A DNA stretch of 49,810 nt, taken from positions 1 through 49,810 of the forward strand of contig JAIQFV010000027.1 of assembly GCA_020073085.1 (NCBI GenBank), read 5' to 3'. A model generated the notes under the pieces. The model saw only the letters and a list, made by a program, of their open reading frames with translations. It ran no database searches and had not been told where the DNA came from. Both the position numbers and the translations under genes were made by a program. Positions 7,299-23,521 of this stretch are shown one piece after another. Each line of letters opens with the position of its first letter. Positions within the stretch are counted from its first letter, which is position 1. The stretch is from Terriglobia bacterium (GTDB lineage: Bacteria; Acidobacteriota; Terriglobia; JAIQFV01).

Positions 7299-8768
7299 TC
7301 AACGCGCGAGAAACGCGGAGGACTGGGCAAAATCGAGAATGGCGGATGGGAACAGGCCGAGATAGAACACGGCCAGGACCGAGACCACGATCACCATCTT
7401 CGTTGCCATGGAAATCTGAAGGGGGGCAGCGTCTTCCGGGGCTGGCGCCCTGCCCGGCTCCCCCGGATCGCGCATATACATCGCGATGGTTGGCCGCAGG
7501 TAGTAGTAGAGCGAGGCGGCGCTGTTGAGGAGAGCGATGAGGGTCAGCCAGTAGAGCTTCGAATTGATGGCGGCCCGGAACATGAAGAATTTGCCGGTAA
7601 AGCCAGCCGTCAGCGGGATGCCGGTGAGTCCCAGCAAGAACACGGTAAAGGCGGCCGCCAGCCAGGGGTGCCGGTAACCCAGGCCGGCAAATTCATCGAT
7701 GGTCACCCGGCGTTCGCCCGAAAGGGACCAGGCGCTGATGACCGCAAAGGCACCCAGGTTCATCACCGAATAAGCGAGGAGGTAAAACAAAATGGAGGCA
7801 ATGCCGTTCGGCGTGAGGGCGGCAAAAGCCACCAGAATGTAGCCGGCATGCGCGATGGAGCTATACGCCAGCATGCGTTTGATGTTCGACTGCAGCATGG
7901 CGGCCGTGTTTCCAATCGTCATGGTCAGCACAGCCGACACCCACAGCACCCAAAACCACTTCTGGTCCAGCGCCGGCAGGGCCACGAAGAACACCCGCAG
8001 GAACGCCGCGAACCCGGCGGCTTTGGGACCGACCGACATCCAGCCCGTGATCGGGATGGGAGCCCCCTCATAGACGTCCGGGGTCCAGATTTGAAAGGGC
8101 GCCGTGGCCACCTTGAAGCTGAATCCCACCATCATGAGCGCCGTTCCCGCGAGCACCAGGCGCAGGTCGATGCGGCCGGTCAGCAAGGCGCTCGAGATCT
8201 GCGAGAGATGAGTGGTGTGGGTCGCGCCGTAGGTCAGGGCGATTCCATAAAGCAGGAACGCCGTGGCAAAGGACCCCAGCAGAAAATATTTGATCGCAGC
8301 CTCATTGGATTTCAAGTCGGTGCGCCGGAACCCTGCCAACACATAGGTCGAGATGGAAGTGATTTCCAGCCCGATGAAGATCATGATCAACTCGTTCGCC
8401 CCGCCCATGAAACACATCCCCACCGTGGCGAAGAGCAGCAGGGCATAGTATTCGCTATGGTTCACGCCCTCGCGCACCAGGTATTGACGGGACACGAGAA
8501 TTGAAAGCCCCGCGATGATCAGAAACAAAAAGTTGAAGAAGAGGCTGAAGGAATCGACGATGATCAATCCGTTGTAATACTCCCCTTCCCCCGTAAGCAG
8601 CAGGACATTGCCGCCCAGGGCGGCCAGGACGCCGATGAAGGCGAGGGTCGAGAGCCATGACTTATGGGACTTCGCCGTAAACGGATCGAAGAGCATCACG
8701 GCAATCCCGAACAGGGTCAGGATGAGTTCGGGGAGGATCGGCAAAATGGGGACTTGAGGCAATGTCAT
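7299..8768 (-). CDS. nuoN: NADH-quinone oxidoreductase subunit N
   Basis: This is a 489-residue polytopic membrane protein of the antiporter-like family, one of the three proton-pumping subunits of complex I. The start is set at ATG 8768 (MTLPQVPILPILPEL); the open frame extends 37 residues upstream, but that part is polar and unlike the family. About fourteen hydrophobic segments can be seen. Typical features include the central TAPFQIWTPDVYEGAP motif, with a lysine (FKVATAPF) of the proton channel just before it, and the NIKRMLAYSSIAHAGY segment. It is the last nuo gene, 111 nt after nuoM. Length matches NuoN. Confidence 0.95.
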   Translation of the reverse strand: MTLPQVPILPILPELILTLFGIAVMLFDPFTAKSHKSWLSTLAFIGVLAALGGNVLLLTGEGEYYNGLIIVDSFSLFFNFLFLIIAGLSILVSRQYLVREGVNHSEYYALLLFATVGMCFMGGANELIMIFIGLEITSISTYVLAGFRRTDLKSNEAAIKYFLLGSFATAFLLYGIALTYGATHTTHLSQISSALLTGRIDLRLVLAGTALMMVGFSFKVATAPFQIWTPDVYEGAPIPITGWMSVGPKAAGFAAFLRVFFVALPALDQKWFWVLWVSAVLTMTIGNTAAMLQSNIKRMLAYSSIAHAGYILVAFAALTPNGIASILFYLLAYSVMNLGAFAVISAWSLSGERRVTIDEFAGLGYRHPWLAAAFTVFLLGLTGIPLTAGFTGKFFMFRAAINSKLYWLTLIALLNSAASLYYYLRPTIAMYMRDPGEPGRAPAPEDAAPLQISMATKMVIVVSVLAVFYLGLFPSAILDFAQSSAFLAR

Positions 8769-8879
8769 GGTCAGATCTTTATCAGTTTGTCGCGCCCCCG
8801 GATTCTCTGCGTCTGCGCGCCATGGCGTGAATTGCTTGTCGCGAAAAGACGCGCTGACGCACCGGGTCACACCCAGCAC

Positions 8880-10415
8880 CTATTTCTTTACCATTATCAC
8901 CCGCGGCGTATTCAACAATTTAGAAACGCTGGCGTCCATCTTTCGAAGGAAGAATTGGGGATAGATCCCCATCCACAGCGCCATGATCACCATCGGCACG
9001 AGGACCCATTTCTCCCGGGTCGAGAGATCCGGCAGAGTCTTGTTGACGTCGCGGGTCACCTCGCCGAAGATCACGCGCTGGTACATCCACAGCATATACA
9101 CGGCCCCGAGGATGACGCCGGTGGCCGCCAGCGTGCAATAGAGCTTCGCCCTGGCGACCGCGGCTCCAAATGTCCCTACCAGGATCAGAAACTCCCCCAC
9201 GAAACCGTTCAGCAATGGCAATCCGATCGACGACAGGGTGATGATCATGAAGATCGTGGCCAACACCGGCATCGGAGTCGCCAGCCCGCCGAACTCGCTG
9301 ATCTCACGCGTATGGCGCCGCTCATATATCATCCCGACAATGAGGAACAACGCGCCGGTCGAAATGCCGTGATTCAGCATCTGATACACTGCGCCCTCGA
9401 CGCCCTGGATGTTGAACACAAAGATCCCGAGCACCACAAAACCGAGATGGCTCACGGAGGAATAGGCGACCAGCCGCTTCAGGTCCGGCTGCACCATCGC
9501 CACCAGCGCGCCGTAGATGATTCCGACCACGGCGAGTACCACGATCAGCGGAGTGAAGGTCTGCGTTGCATCCGGAAACAGCTGGATGTTAAATCTCAGC
9601 AGGCCGTAGGTCCCCATCTTCAACAGCACGCCGGCGAGCAACACCGAGCCCGCCGTGGGGGCCTCGGTGTGCGCATCGGGCAGCCAGGTGTGCAGAGGGA
9701 ACAGCGGAACCTTGATTGCGAACGATACGAAGAAAGCCAGGAACAGCCAGATTTGAATCTGTGGGTCGATCGCCAGCCGGCCGCTGACGATATTGTCGAG
9801 GATCGCGGGGAAGTCAAACGTGGAAACCCCGGTCGCGTGGGCGTTCAAAAAGTACAAGGAGAGAATCGCCACCAGCATGAACGCCGACCCGACGGCGGTG
9901 TAAATGATGAACTTGACGGCGGCGTAAATGCGCCGGCCGTGTCCCCAGATCCCAATCAGGAAGTACATGGGCACCAGCATCACTTCCCAGAAGACATAGA
10001 ACAGGAACAGATCAAGGGAGGCAAACACCCCCACCATCCCGGCTTCAAGCAGCAGGATGAAAATGAAGAACTCCTTGACACGCTTCTCGATCCCCTTCCA
10101 GGAGGCGAGGACCGAAACCGAGGTGAGAAAGCTGGTCAGCAGGACCAGCCACAAACTGATGCCGTCAATGCCCAGGTGATAATTCATGCCGAAAGCGGGA
10201 ATCCAGGAACGGTTCTCTTCAAACTGAAAACCGGCCTCGTGAGGCACAAAATGCATGACCAGGTGGAGCGAGAAAATGAAGGTCAGCAAGGCAAAGACGA
10301 GTGCGGTACGGCGGATGGCCTCATGCTTCTCCGGGTCGAGGAGCGCCAGAACCACCGCCCCTGCGACCGGCGCCAGGATGAGAATCGTCAGGATGTGTGA
10401 GTTAATGAATTCCAT
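8880..10415 (-). CDS. nuoM: NADH-quinone oxidoreductase subunit M
   Basis: This 511-residue antiporter-like membrane subunit pumps protons within complex I. Family landmarks are the conserved Glu in the region FYVFWEVMLVPMYFLIG, the channel segment KVPLFPLHTWLPDAHTEAP, and DLKRLVAYSSVSHLGFV. The start at 10415 (MEFINSHILTILILAPV) fits the family N-terminus. It sits 61 nt after nuoL and is followed by nuoN. All key residues that can be read by eye appear intact. Confidence 0.96.
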   Translation of the reverse strand: MEFINSHILTILILAPVAGAVVLALLDPEKHEAIRRTALVFALLTFIFSLHLVMHFVPHEAGFQFEENRSWIPAFGMNYHLGIDGISLWLVLLTSFLTSVSVLASWKGIEKRVKEFFIFILLLEAGMVGVFASLDLFLFYVFWEVMLVPMYFLIGIWGHGRRIYAAVKFIIYTAVGSAFMLVAILSLYFLNAHATGVSTFDFPAILDNIVSGRLAIDPQIQIWLFLAFFVSFAIKVPLFPLHTWLPDAHTEAPTAGSVLLAGVLLKMGTYGLLRFNIQLFPDATQTFTPLIVVLAVVGIIYGALVAMVQPDLKRLVAYSSVSHLGFVVLGIFVFNIQGVEGAVYQMLNHGISTGALFLIVGMIYERRHTREISEFGGLATPMPVLATIFMIITLSSIGLPLLNGFVGEFLILVGTFGAAVARAKLYCTLAATGVILGAVYMLWMYQRVIFGEVTRDVNKTLPDLSTREKWVLVPMVIMALWMGIYPQFFLRKMDASVSKLLNTPRVIMVKK

Positions 10416-10476
10416 TTCGAACCATTCTTGTCGCGCCCGGAGCGCGACCCGCCGGGTCCATCTCCCTCGCCCACAC

Positions 10477-12438
10477 TCATCGGCCCCAGGTCAGAAACGC
10501 CACCATCAAAGCGGCTCCAACGACCACCCATGCGGCATAGCTTCTGGCCCGGCCTGACTGCAGATGACGGAGCCCCTTTCCAAAACTGCGCACAATAAAA
10601 CCACTCCCGTTGACGAACAACCCATCGATGATCAGGAGGTCCAGCAACTTCCACAGGCCCCAGGTCGAGACGAATTGGATGGGCTTCAAGAGAAGGGCCG
10701 AATAAATTTCGTCCACCCAGTACTTGTGATAAAGGAGGGAATACAGGGGTCTGAATCTTTCCGCAATCGCTTTCCCCCGCGCCGGCTTCGAAAGATAAAT
10801 AAAGAATGCCAAGGCTATTCCAACCAGGGCAATGACGACTGAGGCCATGGTGAGATTGAATTCCAAGCCATGCGGGGCTGCCTCGACGACGCCTTGCGCC
10901 TCCCCCGATGTCGCGGAACCCAGCACGGGCGCCAGATACCTTGTGAACCCTTCGACCCCGCCAAAAAGGAATTTGGGCACTTGCACGTAACCACTGAAGA
11001 TGGCCCCGACTGCCAGAAGAATCAGCGGGATCAACATCACGCGCGGGGACTCATGAACGTGGCGCCACGTTTCTTCGCTGCTGCGGAACTCTCCATGAAA
11101 GGCCACAAACACGATGCGAAACATGTACAGGGCCGTCAACCCCGCCGTAATCCATCCAATCGCCCAGAGCGCGTGCCCGTAATGAGGGGAGTTGAAGGCG
11201 TTCCACAGAATCTCATCCTTGCTGAAGAATCCGGCCAACCCCGGAATTCCCGCGATGGCCAGGGAGGCGATCAGAAAGGTCCAATAAGTGGTCCCCATCT
11301 TCCGCTTCAGGCCGCCCATCTTGAAAATGTCAAGCTCGCCCCCCATGGCGTGCATGACACTGCCCGCCGCCAGGAATAACAACGCCTTAAAAAAGGCGTG
11401 GGTCATCAGATGGAAAATCCCCATGGAGTAAGCCCCCACTCCGCAGGCCAGGAACATGTAACCGAGTTGGCTGATCGTGGAATAGGCCAGAATCCGCTTC
11501 ATGTCTTTCTGGACCAATCCGATGGTTCCGGCGAAGAGGGCGGTGATCGTGCCGACCCCGGCCACCACCAGGAGCGTGAAGGGGGCATGTGAAAACAGAA
11601 CGTTTGAGCGCGCAATCATATAAACGCCCGCCGTCACCATCGTGGCCGCATGAATCAGCGCGCTGACCGGAGTGGGTCCCTCCATGGCATCGGGAAGCCA
11701 AACATACAGCGGCAGCTGGGCGGACTTGCCCGTGGCCCCCATGAACAGCAGCAAGGTAATGATCGTGAGCGCTCCCAGTTGATGCATCGGCTCCACAGCC
11801 ATGCTGGCGGCCTTATGAAAGATGGGCTGAAAATCAAAAGTCCCGAAAAGCCAGAAGATAAAAAACACGCCCAGCGAGAAGCCAAAATCTCCAATCCGCG
11901 TGGTGATGAATGCTTTCTTTCCGGCGTCGGAGGCGCTCTTCTTGTGAAAATAGAAGCCGATGAGCAGATAAGAACAGAGGCCCACGCCTTCCCAGCCGAC
12001 AAACATCAGGACGTAATTGTTGGCCAGGACCAGGGTCAGCATGGCAAACATGAAGAGATTGATGTAGGAGAAGAAGCGATAGTATCCGCCGTGGTGGGGC
12101 CCTTCCTCATGGGCCATGTACCCGATGCTGTAAATGTGGATCAACAATCCAACCACAGTCACCACCAGCACCATCACCGACGACAACGGGTCCAGGAGAA
12201 GGTCATACCCCACGCGGAGAGTCCCCGCCTGAATCCAAGTGAAGTGCCGTTCGATCAGCGGAAAGGAGTCATTGAATGCGACAATCTCGAAAATGGCGAG
12301 CGCACAGGAAAGTCCGGTGCAACCGATGGCGACAATGGACACCCAGGCCTTCGAAAGCTTGCGGCCCCACAGGCCGTTCAATGCAGCTCCGATCAACGGA
12401 AGGATCGGAATCAGCCAAAGATGCGTCGTCGAATTCAT
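10477..12438 (-). CDS. nuoL: NADH-quinone oxidoreductase subunit L
   Basis: This is the 653-residue distal proton-pumping subunit of complex I. The N-terminal fourteen-helix antiporter domain carries FVGWEGVGLCSYLLIGFY, with the channel Glu, and AQLPLYVWLPDAMEGPTPVS, then DMKRILAYSTISQLGYMF. The C-terminal part (about residue 490 on) is the extension expected for the lateral helix and anchoring segment that lies along the membrane arm. Length is slightly above the usual 610-620. It is preceded by nuoK (80-nt gap) and followed by nuoM. Confidence 0.96.
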   Translation of the reverse strand: MNSTTHLWLIPILPLIGAALNGLWGRKLSKAWVSIVAIGCTGLSCALAIFEIVAFNDSFPLIERHFTWIQAGTLRVGYDLLLDPLSSVMVLVVTVVGLLIHIYSIGYMAHEEGPHHGGYYRFFSYINLFMFAMLTLVLANNYVLMFVGWEGVGLCSYLLIGFYFHKKSASDAGKKAFITTRIGDFGFSLGVFFIFWLFGTFDFQPIFHKAASMAVEPMHQLGALTIITLLLFMGATGKSAQLPLYVWLPDAMEGPTPVSALIHAATMVTAGVYMIARSNVLFSHAPFTLLVVAGVGTITALFAGTIGLVQKDMKRILAYSTISQLGYMFLACGVGAYSMGIFHLMTHAFFKALLFLAAGSVMHAMGGELDIFKMGGLKRKMGTTYWTFLIASLAIAGIPGLAGFFSKDEILWNAFNSPHYGHALWAIGWITAGLTALYMFRIVFVAFHGEFRSSEETWRHVHESPRVMLIPLILLAVGAIFSGYVQVPKFLFGGVEGFTRYLAPVLGSATSGEAQGVVEAAPHGLEFNLTMASVVIALVGIALAFFIYLSKPARGKAIAERFRPLYSLLYHKYWVDEIYSALLLKPIQFVSTWGLWKLLDLLIIDGLFVNGSGFIVRSFGKGLRHLQSGRARSYAAWVVVGAALMVAFLTWGR

Positions 12439-12518
12439 CTAATTCAAAAAGTCCCGCCTTGATTCCGCGTGGGCGCCCAGCCGCGCCAGGGTGACGTTCG
12501 GGCCATCCCCACGACCAT

Positions 12519-12821
12519 TTACAACTTCATTCGGTCCACTTCATCGACATTCAACGATTCGCGGTTGCGGTAGAAGGCCACGATGATCGCCAACCCCACC
12601 GCGGCCTCCGCCGCAGCAATCACCATCACAAAGAAAACGAAGATCTGTCCACTCAGCACGTTGATGTGGCGTGAGAAGGCCACGAAGGTCAGGTTGACCG
12701 AGTTCAACATCAATTCGATTGACATGAACATGGTGATCAGATTGCGCTTCATCACGAAGCCAATCACGCCCAGGCCAAAAAGAATGGCCGCGAGAATCAG
12801 AAAGTAATGCAATGGAACCAT
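12519..12821 (-). CDS. nuoK: NADH-quinone oxidoreductase subunit K
   Basis: This 100-residue membrane subunit has three transmembrane helices. The start is placed at ATG 12821 (MVPLHYFLILAAILFGLG), matching the family; the frame could extend nine residues to 12848, but that part is polar. Conserved buried glutamates sit in SIELMLNSVNLT and in the third-helix segment IAAAEAAVGLAIIV, both part of the proton path at the NuoJ/K/A interface. The C-terminus VDEVDRMKL is a usual NuoK ending. Gaps are 59 nt from nuoJ and 80 nt to nuoL. Confidence 0.96.
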   Translation of the reverse strand: MVPLHYFLILAAILFGLGVIGFVMKRNLITMFMSIELMLNSVNLTFVAFSRHINVLSGQIFVFFVMVIAAAEAAVGLAIIVAFYRNRESLNVDEVDRMKL

Positions 12822-12880
12822 GGTTGTGTGCTCTGCCCGAGAAGACATCCCCGTGGGACGTCTCCATAAAAGAAAATCCG

Positions 12881-13375
12881 TTACAACTCCCGCTTCGTCA
12901 GGACCACGGCGCCCAGGATCGCGATCAGGATCAGAACGGAAATGAATTCAAAAGGCAACAGATAGTCCGTGAACAAAACCCGTCCCACCGCCTGAGTGGT
13001 CCCCACCAGTTGCCGGCCGGTCTCGCCCACATCCAGGGGGGATCGCTTCAAGAGGATGACAATCTCCACCATAAGGCAGAGGCCGAGCGGAACGCCTCCC
13101 CACAGCAGGAGACGGTTCTGACGAGTCCCGTGGCTCTCTTCCCTGGGGTTCAATAACATGATGACGAACACAAAGAGCACCATGATGGCGCCCGCATACA
13201 CGATCACCTGCACTACGGCGAGGAATTCCGCATAGAGCATGACATAGAAAATTGAAAGCATCGCCATAACCACGATGAGGGACAAGGCGCTGTGAATGGG
13301 ATGCTTCTGGACAAGCATATTGATCGCCGCCGCGACCGCGATAAACGCAAAGATGAAAAACACTATCGTCTGCAT
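12881..13375 (-). CDS. nuoJ: NADH-quinone oxidoreductase subunit J
   Basis: This 164-residue membrane subunit has five predicted helices. The third contains the characteristic VVQVIVYAGAIMVLFVFVIM, the region of the pi-bulge and conserved Tyr linked to coupling in complex I. The start is ATG 13375 (MQTIVFFIFAFIAV). It follows nuoH directly (107-nt gap). In most operons nuoI would lie between nuoH and nuoJ, and here it does not. Confidence 0.95.
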   Translation of the reverse strand: MQTIVFFIFAFIAVAAAINMLVQKHPIHSALSLIVVMAMLSIFYVMLYAEFLAVVQVIVYAGAIMVLFVFVIMLLNPREESHGTRQNRLLLWGGVPLGLCLMVEIVILLKRSPLDVGETGRQLVGTTQAVGRVLFTDYLLPFEFISVLILIAILGAVVLTKREL

Positions 13376-13482
13376 CAGAAAACCAGTTCGTTACGGTCGA
13401 TTCATCAGTGAAACCACATCAGACCGGCATGGCTGCAGGAAAATTGTCAGCTTCCCTTCCCCTTCCCGGGAATTGAGCCCGG

Positions 13483-14526
13483 TCAAGCCCGCCAAGCCAC
13501 CACCAGACTGGTCAAGACGACATTGGCGAGCGAGAGCGGCACCAGAAACTTCCAGCCAAATGCCATGAGCTGGTCATATCGAAAGCGAGGCAAGGTTCCC
13601 CGCGTCCAGATATAAAAGAGCAGGAACGCTACGATCTTCACGACAAACCAGAACAGCGGCAATACCCCGCGCAACCACACCGGTCCAAAGGCGGGACCAT
13701 GCCAGCCGCCAAAAAAAAGCGTGGTCGCAATGGCGGAAACGGTAATCATGTTGATGTATTCCGTCAGAAAAAACATGCCAAATTTCATCGAACTGTATTC
13801 AGTGTGAAACCCCGCCACCAGTTCATTCTCTGCTTCCGGCAGATCGAACGGCAAACGATTCGTCTCAGCAATGGCGCTGACAAAATAGGTGAAGAAGCTG
13901 ATGAACAGGGGGAATACAAAGATGTTCCATTTGGGAATTATCCCGAACCACCGGCCCCCCTGGAGATCCACGATTTGTCCCAGGCTCAAGGTCCCGGTCA
14001 CCAGAAGGACGCTGACCACGGAGAGGCCAAGCGACAGTTCGTAGCTGATCATCTGCGCCGACGAACGCAAGCCACCCATCAGGGAATACTTGTTATTCGA
14101 AGCCCACCCTCCCAGCGCCACTCCATAGACTCCCACCGACGTGACCGCAAAAATAAAGAGAATGCCGACGTTGAGATCGGTGATCTGGAAGCGGACCGTT
14201 TGGGAACCAAATTGCGCCACGCTCCCGAACGGGATCACCGTGATGGAAAGCGCGGCAGGCACAAAGGCGATCAACGGAGCCAGTACGTAAATGAGTTTCG
14301 AGGCCTGCCCCGGGGTCATGTCCTCTTTCAACAGAAGCTTCAGGACGTCGGCGATGGGCTGGAGCAGCCCATGCCAGCCCACGCGGGACGGACCCCAGCG
14401 GATCTGGAGATGTGCAACCACCTTTCGCTCCAGCCAGGTGGTGTATGCCACCGCCCCGATGAGCACAGCGATGACCACGATGCACTTTAGCGTGGTGCCC
14501 AGAAGAAACAATGAGAATTCAGTCAT
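13483..14526 (-). CDS. nuoH: NADH-quinone oxidoreductase subunit H
   Basis: This 347-residue membrane subunit forms the quinone-binding chamber with NuoB and NuoD. The start is set at ATG 14526 (MTEFSLFLLGTTLK); a longer frame to 14655 would add 43 polar residues and overlap the end of nuoG. Conserved features include TWLERKVVAHLQIRWGPSRVG and QPIADVLKLLLKED near the N-terminus. The glutamate-rich loop AIAETNRLPFDLPEAENELV and the segment GFHTEYSSMKFGMFFLTEY follow. These are the usual quinone-site regions. It is followed by nuoJ without an intervening nuoI. Confidence 0.95.
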   Translation of the reverse strand: MTEFSLFLLGTTLKCIVVIAVLIGAVAYTTWLERKVVAHLQIRWGPSRVGWHGLLQPIADVLKLLLKEDMTPGQASKLIYVLAPLIAFVPAALSITVIPFGSVAQFGSQTVRFQITDLNVGILFIFAVTSVGVYGVALGGWASNNKYSLMGGLRSSAQMISYELSLGLSVVSVLLVTGTLSLGQIVDLQGGRWFGIIPKWNIFVFPLFISFFTYFVSAIAETNRLPFDLPEAENELVAGFHTEYSSMKFGMFFLTEYINMITVSAIATTLFFGGWHGPAFGPVWLRGVLPLFWFVVKIVAFLLFYIWTRGTLPRFRYDQLMAFGWKFLVPLSLANVVLTSLVVAWRA

Positions 14527-14576
14527 GCGCGTTGGGTAAAGCCGTCCAGGAGCCGAGATGGGATCATTCGATGGCG

Positions 14577-16892
14577 TTACATCTGGTATCTCTCGACAAA
14601 GGCCTGCTGCACCGCGGCACGCGGTTCCAGCTGGACCAGGGTGCGACTGTGCCATGCAAGCGAGCCGGAGGCGTAGAGCGACCGGCTCCGGTTGGACCGG
14701 ATGGACTCCGCGAGGGCATTCAAATCCGCGACGTCCGGCAAAGCCTCCCTCGATGCTGCCAGCGTGGTTTGGGGAATGGCGCCCTCGAGCAAGGCCCGCG
14801 CTGTCACCCCTTCATATCCCGGGTTGACCGCCGCAATCTCTTTCAAGACGGTGCTCCAGGGCATATGCATCCAGGTGAGTGCCCCGCAGGCTCGCGCAAG
14901 GTCGACGATAATCTCCAGGTCGGACTTCGCCTCCCCCGGCGGCAGCACCGCGCGCTGCAGGCGCTGAACCTGCCCTCCGCAATTTGTTATCGTTCCCTCT
15001 TTCTCCGCAAAGGAGGCGGAAGGCAAAACAACATGGGCGTGCCGGCCCGTTTCGGTCAGAAACAGATCTGAAACGACCAACAAATCCAGCTTTCCAAGCG
15101 TCGCCACCCGGGCAGGGCCAGGGGATCCGTCCGGCGGGCTCGATGGATCTTCCAGGGGATTGGCGCCAAACAGAATCATCGCCTTCATTCGACCGGCATC
15201 GATGGCGCCCACCATATCAGGCCCCGATAGACCGCGCTGCCGGGGAATGCTGCCCTGCCACACCTCTTCAAAGCGAGCGCGAGCCGCCTCTGCACCCGTG
15301 GGCGCATAACCTGGAAGCAGATTGGGAACCACGCCCATGTCCAGGGCCCCGCGAGAATTGGCGAAATCAGAAAGGGCCAGGTAGCGCGTCGTTCCAGCCA
15401 GCGAGGTCCCGAATTCAACGAGGTCGTGAATCGCTTTGCCTCGGACCTCCGCCCCGAAAAGGATCGCGACGTCACTGGAGGCGCGAAGCTCCTTTTCAAA
15501 CGACTCGATCGACTCCATGGAAAGTCCGGTTTCCGCCGCCACCTTCTCCAGGGCCGAACCCTCACGCCGGGCCAGATACGCCACCAGGGCCGCCTCGGAC
15601 CCCTCTTTCAATATCAAAGAGGCCACCGCTTTGCGGAGCAGTTTGATCTGTTTCGAGTTGACGATGAAAACCCGGGCCTCATGCCGTCGCACGGCAAATC
15701 GAATATTGAAGGCTACCAGCGGCTGCTGCGTGGTCGGGTCATCTCCAATCACGAGAATGGTCCGGGCCGTTTTGATTTGATCGACGTTGAACAGCCCCTC
15801 CGGCTTCGAATGCTTTGCCAGGGCAACCTCCAGCGATGCATAGTCGGCCGTGCGGTGATGGTCCAGGTTGTTCGTTCCAACAATCTGCCGCATGAATTTC
15901 TGAAGCAGATAATTCTCTTCGTTGGTGAGTCGAGGAGAACCCAGGGCCCCGATGGAGTCGGGACCGTTCTGTTTCCGGATCTCACCCAGCCGGTCCGCCA
16001 CATACCCAAGGGCTTCGTTCCAGGAGGCCGGCTGCAAGGTCCCGCCTCGACGAACCAGGGGCGTCTTCAACCGGTCCCCGCTGCCGACATAATCAAATCC
16101 GAACCGCCCTTTCACACAAAGAAACTCTTCGTTTATGCCGGTGCGATCGCGGTTGTTGGCCCGGATGATTTCATTGTTGCGCACCGACAGGGTGGTCTTA
16201 CACCCGTTGGAGCAGTGGGTGCACGTGGTCCCAAAATACTTGAGTTCCCAGGGGCGGGTTTTGTAGCGATACTGGTTGGAGGTGATCGCCCCCACCGGGC
16301 AGATGTCAATGCAGTTCCCGCAGTCTTCGCAGTCCAGCGTATCGTGTCCTGTCCCGATGATCGTCTTGACCCCGCGGCCAATCGGCTCCAGGGCCTTCAC
16401 ATCCATCCCCTCGTCGCAAATGCGGACGCACCGGTAACACAGGATGCACCGGGGAGCGTCAAAGAAGATGATGGGAGAGACCTGCTGCTCCGGCTGGTGC
16501 TCTTTCTCCTCGATGAAGCGGCTGGTTCCGGGGCCGTACTTGAAGGTCATGTCCTGCAACTCGCACTCGCCGCCTTTGTCGCACACCGGACAATCGAGCG
16601 GGTGATTGGTCAGGATGAATTCCAGAACCGCCCGGCGGGCCTCAATCACCGGTTGAGATTCCGTCCGCACCACCATGCCGTTCATACACACGGTGGTGCA
16701 GGCCACCTGCAATTTCGGCGCCTTTTCGATTTCCACCAGGCACATGCGGCAGGCCGCCTGCAACGTCAGGTCCTTGACATAACAGAACGACGGAATGCGG
16801 ATGTCATTCTGCCGGGCCGCCTCGATGAGCAGCGTGCCCGCAGGAACGGTGACCTGCCTTTCGTTGATGGTAAGCGTGACGGTCTCGGGCAT
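14577..16892 (-). CDS. nuoG: NADH-quinone oxidoreductase subunit G
   Basis: This is the 771-residue iron-sulfur subunit of the peripheral arm. Ligand sets read directly: C37, C48, C51 and C65 for the 2Fe-2S centre N1b; H97, C101, C104 and C110 for N5; C149, C152, C155, C159 with C188, C191, C194, C198 for the 4Fe-4S ferredoxin-like region (N4 plus a further set). C224, C227, C231 and C259 match the extra N7 centre found only in some bacteria. The rest is a degenerate molybdopterin-oxidoreductase fold. Having two complete CxxCxxC...CP sets in the ferredoxin-like region is notable. Gene order is nuoEF upstream and nuoH downstream. Length is shorter than E. coli NuoG (about 910). Confidence 0.95.
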   Translation of the reverse strand: MPETVTLTINERQVTVPAGTLLIEAARQNDIRIPSFCYVKDLTLQAACRMCLVEIEKAPKLQVACTTVCMNGMVVRTESQPVIEARRAVLEFILTNHPLDCPVCDKGGECELQDMTFKYGPGTSRFIEEKEHQPEQQVSPIIFFDAPRCILCYRCVRICDEGMDVKALEPIGRGVKTIIGTGHDTLDCEDCGNCIDICPVGAITSNQYRYKTRPWELKYFGTTCTHCSNGCKTTLSVRNNEIIRANNRDRTGINEEFLCVKGRFGFDYVGSGDRLKTPLVRRGGTLQPASWNEALGYVADRLGEIRKQNGPDSIGALGSPRLTNEENYLLQKFMRQIVGTNNLDHHRTADYASLEVALAKHSKPEGLFNVDQIKTARTILVIGDDPTTQQPLVAFNIRFAVRRHEARVFIVNSKQIKLLRKAVASLILKEGSEAALVAYLARREGSALEKVAAETGLSMESIESFEKELRASSDVAILFGAEVRGKAIHDLVEFGTSLAGTTRYLALSDFANSRGALDMGVVPNLLPGYAPTGAEAARARFEEVWQGSIPRQRGLSGPDMVGAIDAGRMKAMILFGANPLEDPSSPPDGSPGPARVATLGKLDLLVVSDLFLTETGRHAHVVLPSASFAEKEGTITNCGGQVQRLQRAVLPPGEAKSDLEIIVDLARACGALTWMHMPWSTVLKEIAAVNPGYEGVTARALLEGAIPQTTLAASREALPDVADLNALAESIRSNRSRSLYASGSLAWHSRTLVQLEPRAAVQQAFVERYQM

Positions 16893-16958
16893 AAGTGCGG
16901 TTCTCTCGTGATACGAAAACGCGGGCGCACATCGGTGTGCCCTTACAGCGTCCGATCC

Positions 16959-18785
16959 CTACGCGGGGACCAGTTCCTTTTCCAGCGGGCATGCACCCAG
17001 TTTCAGGTGCTCTTCGAATTCCGGCCGGAAATGTTGAATAGCGCTCATCACCGGCATGGCGGCCGCATCTCCCAGCGGGCAATGGGTGTGACCCAGAATC
17101 TTCCGGGCCACGCTGTCGAGAAGATCGATATCTTCCCTGCGGCCAAAGCCGCCGTGGTATCGGTTGAAGATCTTTTTCAGCCAGCTCGTCCCTTCGCGGC
17201 AGGGAACACACCACCCACAGGACTCATGGGAATAGAATTTTGCCAGCACCTGGGCGACCCGCACGATGCACGTGGTTTCATCCATGACAATGACGGCGCC
17301 GGAGCCCAGCATGGAACCCGCCTTGGCGATGTCCTCAAAGGTGAGCGGCGTGTCTATTTTGTCCGCGGGCAGGATCGGGGTCGAGGAGCCTCCCGGAATG
17401 ATGGCCTTCAAGCGGTGCCCTTCGCGGAGTCCTCCGGCAAAATCCTCGATCAGGGTCCGCAGGGTGGTTCCCATCGGCACTTCGTAATTTCCCGGATGCT
17501 TCACATGACCGCTCACTGAGAAGATTCGCGTTCCGCCGTTCTTCTCCGGCCCGAATTTGGCATACCACTCGCCGCCGTTCTTGATGATGTGGGGGATCGC
17601 GGAGAGGGTTTCTACATTGTTGACCACTGTCGGACAGCCGTAGAGGCCGACCACCGCCGGAAACGGCGGCTTGATGCGCGGGTAACCGCGCTTCCCTTCC
17701 AAAGATTCGAGCAGCGCGGTTTCCTCACCACAGATGTAGGCGCCCGCGCCGGTGTGGGCCGCCAGATCGAAGTCCCAGCCGCTTCCAAACACGTTTTTTC
17801 CAAGAAAACCCCGGGAGTAAGCTTCCTCGATGGCGCGGCTCACGATGTTGTAGAGGTAGCGATACTCCCCGCGGACATAAACGTATCCCTGGTGGGATTC
17901 TATGGCCCGTCCGGCGATGACGATGCCTTCGATCAACTGGTGAGGATCATATTCGAGCAAGGGCCGGTCTTTGCAGGTGCCCGGCTCGCTCTCGTCGGCG
18001 TTGCACACGATGTATTTCGGCTTCGGGGACTGGCGCGGCACAAAGCTCCACTTCATGCCGGTGGGGAATCCAGCGCCCCCGCGGCCGCGCAGGCCGGACT
18101 TCTTGACCTCCCCGATCAACTCGTCGGAACTCATGGTCTTGAGCGCCTTCTCCGCCGTCGCATACCCGCCCCGCTTCAAATAGTTCTCCATCGAGTTGGA
18201 GTCGGCATCGCTCATCCCGGCGGTCAAGACGCGCGTCGCCTTGGGATGGGCTGCGTTCTGGCGCCGGAGCGGCGTGGATTCCACCGCGACCGCGCCGGGG
18301 CTCTGCTCCGGGCCCTTAAAGGTCTTCAGGTCCGCAAGCAATTGGTCGATGCGCTCCGGAGTCAGGTTCTCATAGAAGTCATAATTCACCTGCATCGCAG
18401 GGGCCGTCGTGCAGGCGCCCATGCACTCGACCTCCTCGATCGAGAACAATCCGTCGGCGGTGACTTCGCCGGGTATCAGCCCCGTCCTCTCCTTGACGTG
18501 CTCCCAAATCCTGTCGGCACCTTTGAGCATACAGGAGATGTTGGTGCACACTTGAAGGTGGTATTTTCCACGCGGCTTCTTCGTCAGCATCGAATAGAAG
18601 GAAATCACCTCTTCCACTTCGAGCGGCGTCAGGTGGAGAAACCGCGCCACGTCGTCGACGATTTCAGGCGTCAAGTGCCCCCTCTCGTCCTGCGCGAACA
18701 TCAGCATCGGGATTACGGCGCTGCGCTTGGACGGGTAGCGCTTCACAAGGGCTTCAAATCTAATTTGCGTTTCAGGTGAAAACAT
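16959..18785 (-). CDS. nuoEF: Fused NADH-quinone oxidoreductase subunits E and F
   Basis: A single 608-residue frame holds two subunits. Residues about 1-165 are NuoE: a helical N-terminus, then a thioredoxin-like 2Fe-2S domain with ligands C80, C85, C121 and C125 (centre N1a). A variable Pro/Ala-rich linker runs to about 190. Residues about 191-608 are NuoF: GRGGAGFPTGMKW for NADH/FMN binding, GAGAYICGEETALLESLEG, and the 4Fe-4S (N3) ligands in ESCGWCVPCREG with the distal HTHCPLGD. No stop or frameshift occurs between the parts; Met191 might be a relic of the old nuoF start. It is the NADH-oxidising module of complex I. The same NuoE-NuoF arrangement is known in HoxF-type hydrogenase subunits, but the surrounding nuo genes make complex I the clear assignment. 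Confidence 0.95.
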   Translation of the reverse strand: MFSPETQIRFEALVKRYPSKRSAVIPMLMFAQDERGHLTPEIVDDVARFLHLTPLEVEEVISFYSMLTKKPRGKYHLQVCTNISCMLKGADRIWEHVKERTGLIPGEVTADGLFSIEEVECMGACTTAPAMQVNYDFYENLTPERIDQLLADLKTFKGPEQSPGAVAVESTPLRRQNAAHPKATRVLTAGMSDADSNSMENYLKRGGYATAEKALKTMSSDELIGEVKKSGLRGRGGAGFPTGMKWSFVPRQSPKPKYIVCNADESEPGTCKDRPLLEYDPHQLIEGIVIAGRAIESHQGYVYVRGEYRYLYNIVSRAIEEAYSRGFLGKNVFGSGWDFDLAAHTGAGAYICGEETALLESLEGKRGYPRIKPPFPAVVGLYGCPTVVNNVETLSAIPHIIKNGGEWYAKFGPEKNGGTRIFSVSGHVKHPGNYEVPMGTTLRTLIEDFAGGLREGHRLKAIIPGGSSTPILPADKIDTPLTFEDIAKAGSMLGSGAVIVMDETTCIVRVAQVLAKFYSHESCGWCVPCREGTSWLKKIFNRYHGGFGRREDIDLLDSVARKILGHTHCPLGDAAAMPVMSAIQHFRPEFEEHLKLGACPLEKELVPA

Positions 18786-18923
18786 GGTGTTACGAACTTT
18801 TCCCCAAAAACCGGATGGCGACCGCTCCGCGCCGGCTTTGGCACAGGACGGGAGCGTCCTACATTGCGCTTAGGATCAACGACGCCCTAGGGACGCCGCC
18901 CCCCCAATATTGCGAACACCGAC

Positions 18924-20150
18924 TCAACGATCAATCTCACCGAGCACGATGTCGAGAGAACCAATCACCGCCACCACATCGGCCACCAACCGGCCTTCGC
19001 ACATGGAGGCCAGGGACTGAAGGTTCACAAACGAGGGTCCCCGGATGTGCATCCGGACGGGTTTGGGACCGCCGTCGCTCACCAGGTAGTAGCCGAGTTC
19101 TCCTTTCGGCGCTTCGATCGCATGGTAGACCTCGCCGACCGGAGGATGAATGCCTTCCGTGATGATCTTGTAGTGATGGATCAGCGTTTCCATCTCGGTC
19201 TTCATTTTGTTCCGGTCGGGCAGAACGTACTTCGGGCAGTCGGCTCGAATCGGCCCCGCCGGGAGTCCATCCAGGGCCTGCTGGACAATTTTCTGGGATT
19301 GGCGCAGTTCCTCGACCCGGCAGAGATATCGTGCATAGACATCCCCTTCCGTCCGGGTGGGCACTCGAAAGTCAAACCTTTCGTAGCCGCAATAAGGCTC
19401 CTTTTTTCGAATGTCGTAGTTGACGCCGGTCGCGCGCAGGGAAGGACCGGAGAGCCCGATCGCGACCGCATCCCGGGCGTTGATCGTCCCCACTCCCTGG
19501 GTCCGTCGCAGCCAGATGGGATTCTTCGTGAGGAGCGTCTCGTACTCGTCCACCCGATCCGGAAACTCCTTGATGAATTTCTGGATTCGTGGAACAAGGT
19601 CGGCGGGGATCTCGCTGGGCAGCCCGCCCACGCGAAAGTAGCTGGTGGTCAGTCGCCCGCCGCAGGCGGCTTCGAAGAAATTCAGGATCTGCTCGCGCTC
19701 ACGGAAGCAGTACAGAAACACCGTCATGGCGCCAATATCCATGGCGTGGGTTCCCAGCCACACGAGGTGGCTGGCGATGCGGTTCAGCTCCACCATAATC
19801 ACCCGGACGTACTGGGCGCGGGGCGGAATCTCGTTCTGGATGCCGCAGAGTTTTTCGACGGCCATGATGTAACCGAGGTTGTTCGACATGGGCGCCAGGT
19901 AATCGGTCCGGTCGGTGATAGGCAGGACTTGTGCATAGGTCTTCGTTTCCGACAGCTTTTCCATGCCCGTGTGGAGATAGCCGATGTCGGGACGCGCCTT
20001 GATCACGGTTTCGCCGTCGAGCTCCAGCACCACGCGCAGTACGCCGTGCGTGGAGGGATGCTGAGGCCCCATGCTGAGGATCATGGTCTCAGCCTTGCCG
20101 GCCGTCGACTCGACCTGCTCGGATTCCAGATTGAAGCGCATCGTTTCCAT
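18924..20150 (-). CDS. nuoD: NADH-quinone oxidoreductase subunit D
   Basis: This 408-residue, 49-kDa type subunit lines the quinone pocket together with NuoB. It shows the family sequence MGPQHPSTHGVLRVVLELDG, where the His and later Tyr contact quinone, then PDIGYLHTGMEKL and the tail SLDIVLGEIDR. Of two in-frame starts, ATG 20150 and ATG 20141, the second has GGAA close upstream; the difference is three residues. It is separate from nuoC, unlike the nuoCD fusion of E. coli. The upstream gap is 36 nt; a 138-nt gap follows before nuoEF. Confidence 0.95.
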   Translation of the reverse strand: METMRFNLESEQVESTAGKAETMILSMGPQHPSTHGVLRVVLELDGETVIKARPDIGYLHTGMEKLSETKTYAQVLPITDRTDYLAPMSNNLGYIMAVEKLCGIQNEIPPRAQYVRVIMVELNRIASHLVWLGTHAMDIGAMTVFLYCFREREQILNFFEAACGGRLTTSYFRVGGLPSEIPADLVPRIQKFIKEFPDRVDEYETLLTKNPIWLRRTQGVGTINARDAVAIGLSGPSLRATGVNYDIRKKEPYCGYERFDFRVPTRTEGDVYARYLCRVEELRQSQKIVQQALDGLPAGPIRADCPKYVLPDRNKMKTEMETLIHHYKIITEGIHPPVGEVYHAIEAPKGELGYYLVSDGGPKPVRMHIRGPSFVNLQSLASMCEGRLVADVVAVIGSLDIVLGEIDR

Positions 20151-20186
20151 AAGCTATCTTGTCTGACGACAGCGCCGCCCGGGCCC

Positions 20187-20729
20187 TCAATCGCTCAAGG
20201 TACTGTACCAGCCTCGCTTCGTCGGCGGCTCGGGAGAGGGCGCCGTCTCTTCGTAGCCGAGCATCGGATAATCCTTCCGCAACGGATGCCCGTTCCATTC
20301 CTCGGGGCACAAAATCCTGTGCAGGTCCGGATGGTTCTCAAAAACAATCCCAAACATGTCGAACACTTCTCGTTCATGCCAATTTGCGGTGGGCCATACA
20401 GAGGTTACGCTGGCCACTTTCCCGTCCTTCTCGGAAATGCGGACTTTGAGGCGCAGTCGCTCCCCGCGGGAGAGGCAGAGGAGATGATAATTCACCTCAA
20501 ATCGCGGTTCGTCCGGCATCCGATCCACCCCGGTCAGGTCGGCGAGAAAATCAAACTGCAAGGTGTCATCCCCGCGCGCGAATAGGCAGAACTCCAGGAT
20601 CCGGCCCTTCTCCACCACCAGCGTCGTCTCACCCTGGAAATAAACAACTTCCGTAAGAGCGTCGCCGAATTTCTCCACGAATCGCTTGACGGTGGAATTG
20701 CTTTCCAATGCTGGAGGAATCGTCACCAT
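20187..20729 (-). CDS. nuoC: NADH-quinone oxidoreductase subunit C
   Basis: This 180-residue, 30-kDa type peripheral-arm subunit carries the family signature ANWHEREVFDMFGIVFENHPDLHRILCPEEWNGHPLRKDYP in its second half. A short C-terminal tail ends in KRGWYSTLSD. The start is ATG 20729. In standard operons nuoB sits between nuoA and nuoC; here only a 106-bp gap separates nuoC from nuoA, too short for a NuoB of about 160 residues. Confidence 0.95.
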   Translation of the reverse strand: MVTIPPALESNSTVKRFVEKFGDALTEVVYFQGETTLVVEKGRILEFCLFARGDDTLQFDFLADLTGVDRMPDEPRFEVNYHLLCLSRGERLRLKVRISEKDGKVASVTSVWPTANWHEREVFDMFGIVFENHPDLHRILCPEEWNGHPLRKDYPMLGYEETAPSPEPPTKRGWYSTLSD

Positions 20730-20835
20730 TGTCTATGAAAAGGGCAAGTGTAAGAATTCACAATTTTCAGCAAAAAAGCCTTCCGGCTTTCAATGCAAAT
20801 CCATTCCCGGGGCGCCGCCCGGCTTGAGTGAACCT

Positions 20836-21198
20836 TCAATTCTTATTCCAATCGAGTGCGCCCTTTTTCCAGATGTATACATACCCCGCCAGAACGACTA
20901 GAATAAAGGTCAACATCTCAAAGAATCCGAAAAAGCGCAATTCCTTGTAAATCACCGCCCAGGGGTAAAGAAAAATCACTTCCACGTCGAAGAGAATAAA
21001 CAGCATCGCCGTGAGATAGAATTTAACGGCAAAGCGTTCGTGGGCAGATCCGGTCGGACGCACCCCGCTTTCGTAAGGCATCAGTTTCTCGGGTGTGGGC
21101 TTGTGCTTCCCCACCAGATACGACAATCCGAGAATGCCCAGGCCGATCAGCGAAACAAGAATGAGTTGAATCAGAATGGGTAGATAACTTCGCAGCAT
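20836..21198 (-). CDS. nuoA: NADH-quinone oxidoreductase subunit A
   Basis: This 120-residue membrane subunit has three helices and is the first gene of the nuo operon. The family loop PYESGVRPTGSAHERFAVKFY and the second-helix ILFDVEVIFLYPWAV are present, with the conserved Asp and Glu. The ribosome binding site is weak. The promoter at 21249-21278 lies about 50 nt upstream. Confidence 0.96.
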   Translation of the reverse strand: MLRSYLPILIQLILVSLIGLGILGLSYLVGKHKPTPEKLMPYESGVRPTGSAHERFAVKFYLTAMLFILFDVEVIFLYPWAVIYKELRFFGFFEMLTFILVVLAGYVYIWKKGALDWNKN

Positions 21199-21248: not shown

Positions 21249-21278
21249 AATATACGTTTTGCTTTTGTGAGGTGTCAA
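21249..21278 (-). promoter_or_regulatory. Sigma70 promoter of the nuo operon
   Basis: On the minus strand a perfect -35 TTGACA (21273-21278), an 18-bp spacer and a -10 TATATT (21249-21254) are present. Transcription would start near 21242, leaving a leader of about 45 nt before nuoA. The spacing and boxes match those of the serS and tRNA-Ser promoters in this window. Confidence 0.75.
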
Positions 21279-21363: not shown

Positions 21364-21999
21364 ATGATCACAGGACTCAATACCGCAGTCACGTTCAAAG
21401 AACACGATTATCACGTGCAAACGGAAGACCGTGGGCGCGACAATCCCGTGATTGAATCGATAATCTACCAGGGAGGGGCCATTCTCGGCTCGAAGAAGGC
21501 CTCCTACAAGGAGTTACTGGAATCCGGATCCTTCACCGAAGATAAATTGCGAGCGCTGCTTGAACGGCAGCACTATGCCATCGTTCAGGCCATTCGAACG
21601 GGACGGGTCACGGCCCGACAGCAAAAACGGTCACGGCCCAAGGCTCGCCCTCTTCCCCCGGACACCCTGATTACACCCCATGTGGAATTGTTCAGCCCGG
21701 AGCTGGACGAGAACACCGATGAAGAGCTGCGGGAAATGCGCATCCGCATCATTGAAACTTTCAACGCCAAACCGATCCCGAATGCGGAGGTTTTTGTGGA
21801 GTTATTTGGCAAGGGGATCCAGACCCAGCGGCTCTCCGGCATCACGGATGACGAAGGCTTTCTGAGCCTGAAGATCGATGTCCCGCTTTCGCACCGGGTG
21901 GCTGCTGCCATGCTTTTCCGCGTCGACAAGCCTGACCCGAGTCAGGAACTCAAGGTCCTCTTTGTGAAAACAGAGAAAAATAGCGGGTCCAAAGTCTGA
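21364..21999 (+). CDS. Conserved-type hypothetical protein (211 aa)
   Basis: The protein has no signal peptide or membrane segment. The N-terminal half (about 1-75) has the pattern ITGLNTAVTFKEHDYHVQTED, GRDNPVIESIIYQGGAI and KASYKELLESGSF. I have the impression of a recurrent cytoplasmic family in Acidobacteria, but cannot name it. A basic linker (about 78-98, RQQKRSRPKARP) follows. The C-terminal half (about 120-205) looks like a beta-sandwich, with IIETFNAKPIPNAEVFVELFG and DDEGFLSLKIDVP, similar to carboxypeptidase-regulatory or Ig-like repeats. It is transcribed away from nuo and followed by thiS after 41 nt. The function is unknown. Confidence 0.75.
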   Translation: MITGLNTAVTFKEHDYHVQTEDRGRDNPVIESIIYQGGAILGSKKASYKELLESGSFTEDKLRALLERQHYAIVQAIRTGRVTARQQKRSRPKARPLPPDTLITPHVELFSPELDENTDEELREMRIRIIETFNAKPIPNAEVFVELFGKGIQTQRLSGITDDEGFLSLKIDVPLSHRVAAAMLFRVDKPDPSQELKVLFVKTEKNSGSKV

Positions 22000-22552: not shown

Positions 22553-23521
22553 ATGAATTCCAAGGTTTCCCTGCAACAATTGAAGCAACAATCCGGGATG
22601 CGAATGCGCATTTCGGCAATCGGGCTCACTGCGGCGGCAACGCTGGCCATTCTCGGTGCCACCTTTGTTCCGACTTCCCTTCTGGCGAAGACACCCCCCG
22701 AAGTCACTCTCACCGTCACGGTTGGTGGCGCCAAGTCGATCCCGACGCTCACCGCCTCGAACTTTGTGGTGACGGACCATGGCCAGATGCAGAACGTTCA
22801 GGTTCTGGCGGGGCCACCTCTTCAGTCACCGCTCCATGTGGCCCTGGTGGTTGAGGAAGGGACCGCTCCATCCCTGAACAATCAACTGGCCAACCTGCGT
22901 CGGTTTATCGAGCAATTGCCTGCGGGTACAGACGTCATGATCGCGACCATCGACCGCAATCACGCCAACCTGGTGGTCCCGTTTACCACCGATCTGAGGC
23001 GGGCGGCAAATTCCATTTCAATTCTCAAAGATGTCCCTTCCGAGGTTCCGCTGAGTGCTTTTGTATCGCTCTCCGATGTCATCGGGCGATTCAAGGGGCT
23101 CGACGGACGCAAAGAGATTGTGATGGTAGGTCCCGGCTACGACACTCTACAGGAAGAAATCAGTCCTTCGTCCAACATGGACCTCCAACAAGCCGAAAGA
23201 AAAGCACGAGAAGAGAACGTCGTGGTCCACACCATTTGGGTCCCTTCCGCCGTCCCATTCTCACGGCTCTTTGATTTGTCGGGATCGTCGAACATGGCGG
23301 ACCTGGCCGAGGCGACCGGAGGTCTGTCCTTCTGGAACATCGACCGCAGTGTCGTCCAAGACCTGACGGCCCGGCTCAACACCATCCAGGAGGCCTTCAA
23401 CCAGCAGTACGTTCTTCGGTTTACTCCTGATATTCCCTTCAATCAGTCCCACAACATTCGAGTCAAGTTGAAGGATGTCCAGGAAGCAAATGAGATTAAG
23501 GTGAATTTTCCCAAGCGCTAA
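22553..23521 (+). CDS. Secreted VWFA-related domain protein
   Basis: A 322-residue exported protein. A charged N-terminus is followed by a hydrophobic segment (about residues 20-44) ending at LLAK, a signal peptide or anchor. A short beta-rich part (about 48-85) is followed by a von Willebrand factor A-like fold (about 86-285): LHVALVVEEGTAPS, IATIDRNHANLVVPFTTD, LDGRKEIVMVGPGYD, VVVHTIWVP and the closing strand region QYVLRFTPD. This matches the VWFA-related family common in Acidobacteria. The metal-binding DxSxS motif is not intact: VVEEGTAPS stands in its place, so metal-dependent binding may be lost. The start is ATG 22553, with AAGGAAGG about ten bases upstream. It is probably periplasmic or surface-exposed; the partner is unknown. 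Confidence 0.85.
   Translation: MNSKVSLQQLKQQSGMRMRISAIGLTAAATLAILGATFVPTSLLAKTPPEVTLTVTVGGAKSIPTLTASNFVVTDHGQMQNVQVLAGPPLQSPLHVALVVEEGTAPSLNNQLANLRRFIEQLPAGTDVMIATIDRNHANLVVPFTTDLRRAANSISILKDVPSEVPLSAFVSLSDVIGRFKGLDGRKEIVMVGPGYDTLQEEISPSSNMDLQQAERKAREENVVVHTIWVPSAVPFSRLFDLSGSSNMADLAEATGGLSFWNIDRSVVQDLTARLNTIQEAFNQQYVLRFTPDIPFNQSHNIRVKLKDVQEANEIKVNFPKR

Follow-up and report, generated by a model that had tools for sequence, protein, structure and literature searches.

The window, a stretch of 49,810 nucleotides from the genome of a soil acidobacterium of the Terriglobia, carries on its minus strand (positions 7299-21198) an operon for complex I with the gene order nuoA-C-D-EF-G-H-J-K-L-M-N (Table 1). 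Identified against NCBIfam and Pfam, its 11 reading frames encode 12 of the 14 core subunits, the numbers differing because NuoE and NuoF are fused into one protein. The sequence-only reading had described the subunits that remain as intact; every one of them matches NCBIfam or Pfam families, with the A, H and J proteins matching only their own subunit families in NCBIfam, and that reading had left unmentioned that E and F form a single ORF. The three genomes of the order all have the fusion, as does a distant genome (G107), and it is absent from the operons of family f2 in which both genes were read. The true start of nuoH is probably the internal Met 44, near position 14526. The region upstream of nuoA that holds the operon's promoter-like site is conserved across three genomes of the order. 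Two plus-strand ORFs just upstream of the operon, at 21364-21999 and 22553-23521, have no Pfam match.

Table 1 Features of the complex I operon and of the detached genes (plain positions refer to the window; other loci are given by contig or locus handle).
Feature	Location	Strand	Evidence or note
Promoter-like site of operon	21249..21278	-	TTGACA-18-TATATT, 11/12 consensus matches
nuoA, 120 aa, first gene of operon	20836..21198	-	NuoA families only, E 9e-34
nuoA-nuoC gap, 106 bp, usual nuoB position	20730..20835		N-free, NuoB similarity not significant
nuoC, 180 aa	20187..20729	-	TIGR01961 above cut-off
nuoD, 408 aa	18924..20150	-	TIGR01962 above cut-off; motif GYLHTG
nuoE-nuoF fusion, 608 aa	16959..18785	-	TIGR01958 at 11-154, TIGR01959 at 188-593, both above cut-off
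nuoG, 771 aa	14577..16892	-	TIGR01973 above cut-off
nuoH, 390-aa ORF	13483..14655	-	NuoH families E 1e-130, match from about residue 46
nuoH-nuoJ gap, 107 bp, usual nuoI position	13376..13482		N-free, NuoI similarity not significant
nuoJ, 164 aa	12881..13375	-	NuoJ families E 2e-36
nuoK, 109 aa	12519..12848	-	NuoK families above cut-off
nuoL, 653 aa	10477..12438	-	Proton_antipo_M and Proton_antipo_N
nuoM, 511 aa	8880..10415	-	Proton_antipo_M
nuoN, 526-aa ORF, last gene of operon	7299..8879	-	Proton_antipo_M
Lone nuoB	C7:176235-176783		NF005012 259 bits, cut-off 116
Lone nuoI	C3:18418-18996		TIGR01971 140 bits, cut-off 113
Detached nuoB (often nuoI-nuoB) followed by PF02636 gene, other genomes	L182, L183, L184, L185, L188, L191, L195, L205; G119:C23:59821-61193		

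nuoB and nuoI are missing from this order. As the sequence-only reading had it, nuoA is followed directly by nuoC and nuoH directly by nuoJ; the two gaps have exactly the lengths it gave, and a similarity search for remnants of nuoB and nuoI found nothing significant in either, leaving the operon with neither gene nor a trace of one. The genome (5.79 Mb, 98.7% complete) is a draft in 68 contigs, which would lend some colour to the idea that the absence is an artefact of assembly or binning, yet the gaps are free of Ns and the same junctions recur in other assemblies, including a genome of three contigs, and we give this explanation practically no chance. An assembly gap, or an intact nuoB or nuoI at these positions in another assembly, had been named as the observations that would tell against the absence; neither was found, and two further genomes of the order share the A-C and H-J junctions.

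Both genes are present elsewhere in the genome, as had been supposed, each as a solitary gene. The lone nuoB is flanked by peptide ABC transporter genes and truA, whereas the lone nuoI lies in a stretch with a nucleotidyltransferase gene on its upstream side and a gene for a sigma-54 response regulator on its downstream side, and it has a promoter-like upstream sequence that is its own and is kept in the order. The lone nuoI probably starts at Met 31 of its long ORF, because relatives have stop codons upstream of that residue. NuoB carries cluster N2 and NuoI carries clusters N6a and N6b; the ligand cysteines of these, four for N2 and eight for N6a/N6b, are all present in the lone proteins, and the 12 are invariant across all aligned rows. 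The best structural match of the two proteins is Thermus thermophilus NDH-1 (Nqo1-14; 2fug chains 6 and 9), from which the present arrangement differs in its solitary nuoB and nuoI and its fused E and F. In gene trees, the lone NuoB and NuoI cluster with orthologues of sister families, where NuoB still sits in the operon. The proposed search of the genome thus recovered both genes, but its preferred outcome, a pair or a place within a second nuo cluster, was rejected for this genome: both are solitary, and the second cluster has a set of its own.

That second complex I has nuoAB on contig C40 and nuoCDHIJKLMN on contig C4, its own B and I included, and may be of the 11-subunit type without an N-module. 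Other Oxidored_q6 matches lie in a hydrogenase-4-like cluster on contig C19 and also on contig C11. Because a second NuoB and NuoI exist in the genome, the window operon could conceivably use these, with the lone copies serving another role; a pair of residues at N2 speaks against this. Mitochondrial NDUFS2 has Arg85 near N2, whereas Thermus has threonine there and a compensating arginine in NuoB/Nqo6 (PMC8042128, PMC3750175); the position of Arg85 was confirmed with a chain numbered as mature NDUFS2. The window NuoD has threonine at the equivalent position and the lone NuoB has arginine, as in Thermus thermophilus NDH-1, and the second complex is reversed, with arginine in its NuoD and threonine in its NuoB. 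Because these residues are opposite within one genome, the lone NuoB appears to be the partner of the window NuoD. The lone NuoI would likewise belong with the window complex, by orthology and counts. Relatives with a single complex retain only the lone B and I, and we consider it very improbable that the window operon borrows from the second complex.

The same switch recurs more widely. Scored by the motifs GYLH[T/R]G in NuoD and AG[R/T] in NuoB, 59 NuoD/NuoB sets paired by genome and complex type comprise 35 Thr/Arg, 22 Arg/Thr and 2 with tryptophan in NuoB, and a like-with-like pair occurs in 0 of the 59; the two states mostly correspond to two clades, with the NuoB-Arg/NuoD-Thr sets forming one large clade, so the 59 sets are not 59 independent events and few independent events are seen across taxa. 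The residue contrast within this genome is a stronger argument than the cross-taxon counts.

The reading we favour, with a probability of about 0.93, is that of an ordinary NADH:quinone oxidoreductase whose NuoB and NuoI would be supplied in trans from two single genes elsewhere. The window operon would supply 12 core subunits, NuoB (N2) and NuoI (N6a/N6b) would be made from the solitary genes and join the Q-module in trans, and the three transcription units would be co-expressed to yield a functional enzyme. All 14 core subunits of a canonical NDH-1 are encoded (12 in the window, one on contig C7, NuoB, and one on contig C3, NuoI), with the N-module subunits NuoE, NuoF and NuoG above the cut-offs of TIGR01958, TIGR01959 and TIGR01973, and with the 4 + 8 cysteines of N2 and N6a/N6b. 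The 11-subunit type without an N-module does not fit, E, F and G being in the window operon, nor does the duplicated-nuoM (2M) type, as a single M lies between L and N. With nuoB and nuoI on other contigs, this is a split-cluster complex I, defined as one whose subunits are not all within clusters of genes 250 bp apart (PMC12361115). An operon without both genes is also what would be expected of a degenerate or alternative complex that functions without NuoB and NuoI, but the remaining subunits are intact and conserved, and all genomes examined in the class keep the lone genes, whose cysteines do not vary; this makes such a complex hardly credible.

The sequence-only reading had judged two separate, precise losses from one operon to be unusual. 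The layout is no peculiarity of this genome, as it is common to the class. Each of the three genomes from the order shows it. Family f2 belongs to the same class; 11 of its operons were read from A at least as far as J, and B and I are missing from all 11. One more f2 operon, ending after D, lacks B, and NuoB and NuoI are encoded outside the operon in 14 of 14 f2 genomes. In the three-contig f2 genome (G094), nuoD, nuoI and nuoB lie on one contig at 3.79, 4.68 and 4.87 Mb, at spacings of 186 kb to about 0.9 Mb. In five f2 genomes (G049, G061, G094, G103 and G139; 99% complete), NuoB, NuoI and NuoD are each matched once, and the lone copies therefore have no other complex there; in G023 and G112, too, B, I and D each have a single match. 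NuoI was counted at E <= 1e-20, a threshold at which NuoI of the second type is missed, but one NuoD per genome indicates one complex despite this.

Comparison with related genomes for the ancestral order, which had also been suggested, was informative. In families f21 and f60, nuoB lies between A and C and nuoI is already absent from the operon, and family f32 also keeps nuoB in place; the A-C gap is 20-160 bp in relatives without nuoB versus 506-911 bp in those with it. Trees of NuoD, NuoB and NuoI place f21, f60 and f32 with f1 and f2 at moderate support (SH-aLRT 81-99), the NuoB clade of f1 and f2 having an SH-aLRT of 81 and losing support in a second tree built from other rows. Given the gene order in f21 and f60 together with these trees, the layout would have arisen stepwise, with nuoI departing first and nuoB later. 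The two events are thus separate, as had been claimed, but, judged from gene order and trees, they are successive relocations and not losses; a second, separate move of NuoB is possible. The fission of the operon is real and lineage-wide; what is uncommon is the order of the genes, and the enzyme looks complete, not broken. The neighbour of nuoI is a full MetH in f2 and an S-methyltransferase/MTHFR fusion in distant families, and with this difference an ancestral nuoI-metH linkage was partly rejected.

Detachment of the same genes is seen in other lineages. In another group of Acidobacteriota (f18, f41, f48, f54, gp22 and f51), nuoI and nuoB share a site apart from the operon; in f5, f26 and f56 each has its own locus off the operon. 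The Methylomirabilota operon likewise lacks B and I; in one genome (L206), 8 kb separate a lone nuoI from a lone nuoB of the Arg type, both on a different contig from the operon and with no other nuo matches between them. Other rearrangements occur as well: the operons of f7, f58, f33, f24, f15 and f46 have no recognisable nuoG, nor nuoI (L116, L118, L119, L121, L134, L135), and the complex I genes of f23 fall into two clusters at distant sites, one of A-D (partly E-F) and one of H-M (L196-L199, L122-L125).

In at least nine genomes, from several families of Acidobacteriota, a gene for a PF02636 methyltransferase of the MidA/NDUFAF7 family lies closely 3′ of the detached nuoB; positions around the nuoI-nuoB pairs were taken from HMM and tblastn matches, given spurious ORFs at high GC. 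The NuoD of the nuoI-nuoB-midA genomes has arginine wherever it was read, and PF02636 was not found in genomes that have only Thr-type NuoD. In G150, midA lies directly upstream of nuoC of the second complex (L217:6062-7159). The association is imperfect, as G101 has an Arg-type NuoD without midA; the f51 pair also lacks it. In the genome of the window, about 9 kb separate midA (L219:1852-3042, contig C4) from the cluster of the second complex, and the second-complex NuoD near midA has the methylatable arginine both here and in G150.

Complex I loci that are split have been described before. A 2025 survey found that most clades contain both split and single-cluster loci (PMC12361115), with full subunit sets spread beyond one cluster as here, and work cited there indicates that nuo gene order is dispensable for assembly in Escherichia coli; which genes leave in Terriglobia is absent from its text. 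Nitrospina gracilis NUO-2 similarly has nuoB2 outside any operon, but there nuoF2 is alone too, nuoI is in a cluster and the cofactor sites of NuoF and NuoG are altered (PMC3578206). Acidobacterium capsulatum 161 belongs to the same class and has been cultured; the paper on it names nuoAC and nuoE-N and describes a second complex with duplicated nuoM, while its authors treat NDH-I as one nuoA-N operon and leave the layout undiscussed (PMC11636273). We found no description of the Terriglobia layout in the open-access literature and, as far as that literature shows, it is a new case of the known split loci.

As to why the genes moved, neutral operon fission is the default. Alternatively, with the composition of the complex the same, the moves may have been selected because they place two Fe-S subunits of the Q-module under separate control, for example by iron or oxygen. 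These two subunits are also absent from the operons of the second Acidobacteriota group and of Methylomirabilota, and in A. capsulatum the nuoAC and nuoE-N transcripts differ in their response to oxygen (PMC11636273). Against selection, inspection by eye of the sequences upstream of nuoA, nuoB and nuoI in three genomes revealed no regulatory motif common to the three units, the neighbours vary by family (peptide ABC transporter/truA, glnB-glnD, metH), and other parts relocate in other lineages, such as nuoG or H-N. We regard selected moves as unlikely, if worth weighing. A more specific proposal, that uncoupling recurred in Terriglobia, the second Acidobacteriota group and Methylomirabilota as separate dosage or timing of the Q-module Fe-S subunits is advantageous, is doubtful and put forward tentatively; if it were true, nuoB and nuoI would serve as points at which the assembly of complex I is controlled.

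These results call for caution in calling complex I incomplete from one operon, as the genes for two essential Fe-S subunits invariably lie outside the operon in these bacteria. The Arg-Thr switch between NuoB and NuoD offers a simple sequence test for pairing in genomes with several complexes, and the nuoI-nuoB-midA cluster of other Acidobacteriota connects complex I beyond Proteobacteria and mitochondria with the NDUFAF7/MidA family of arginine methylases.
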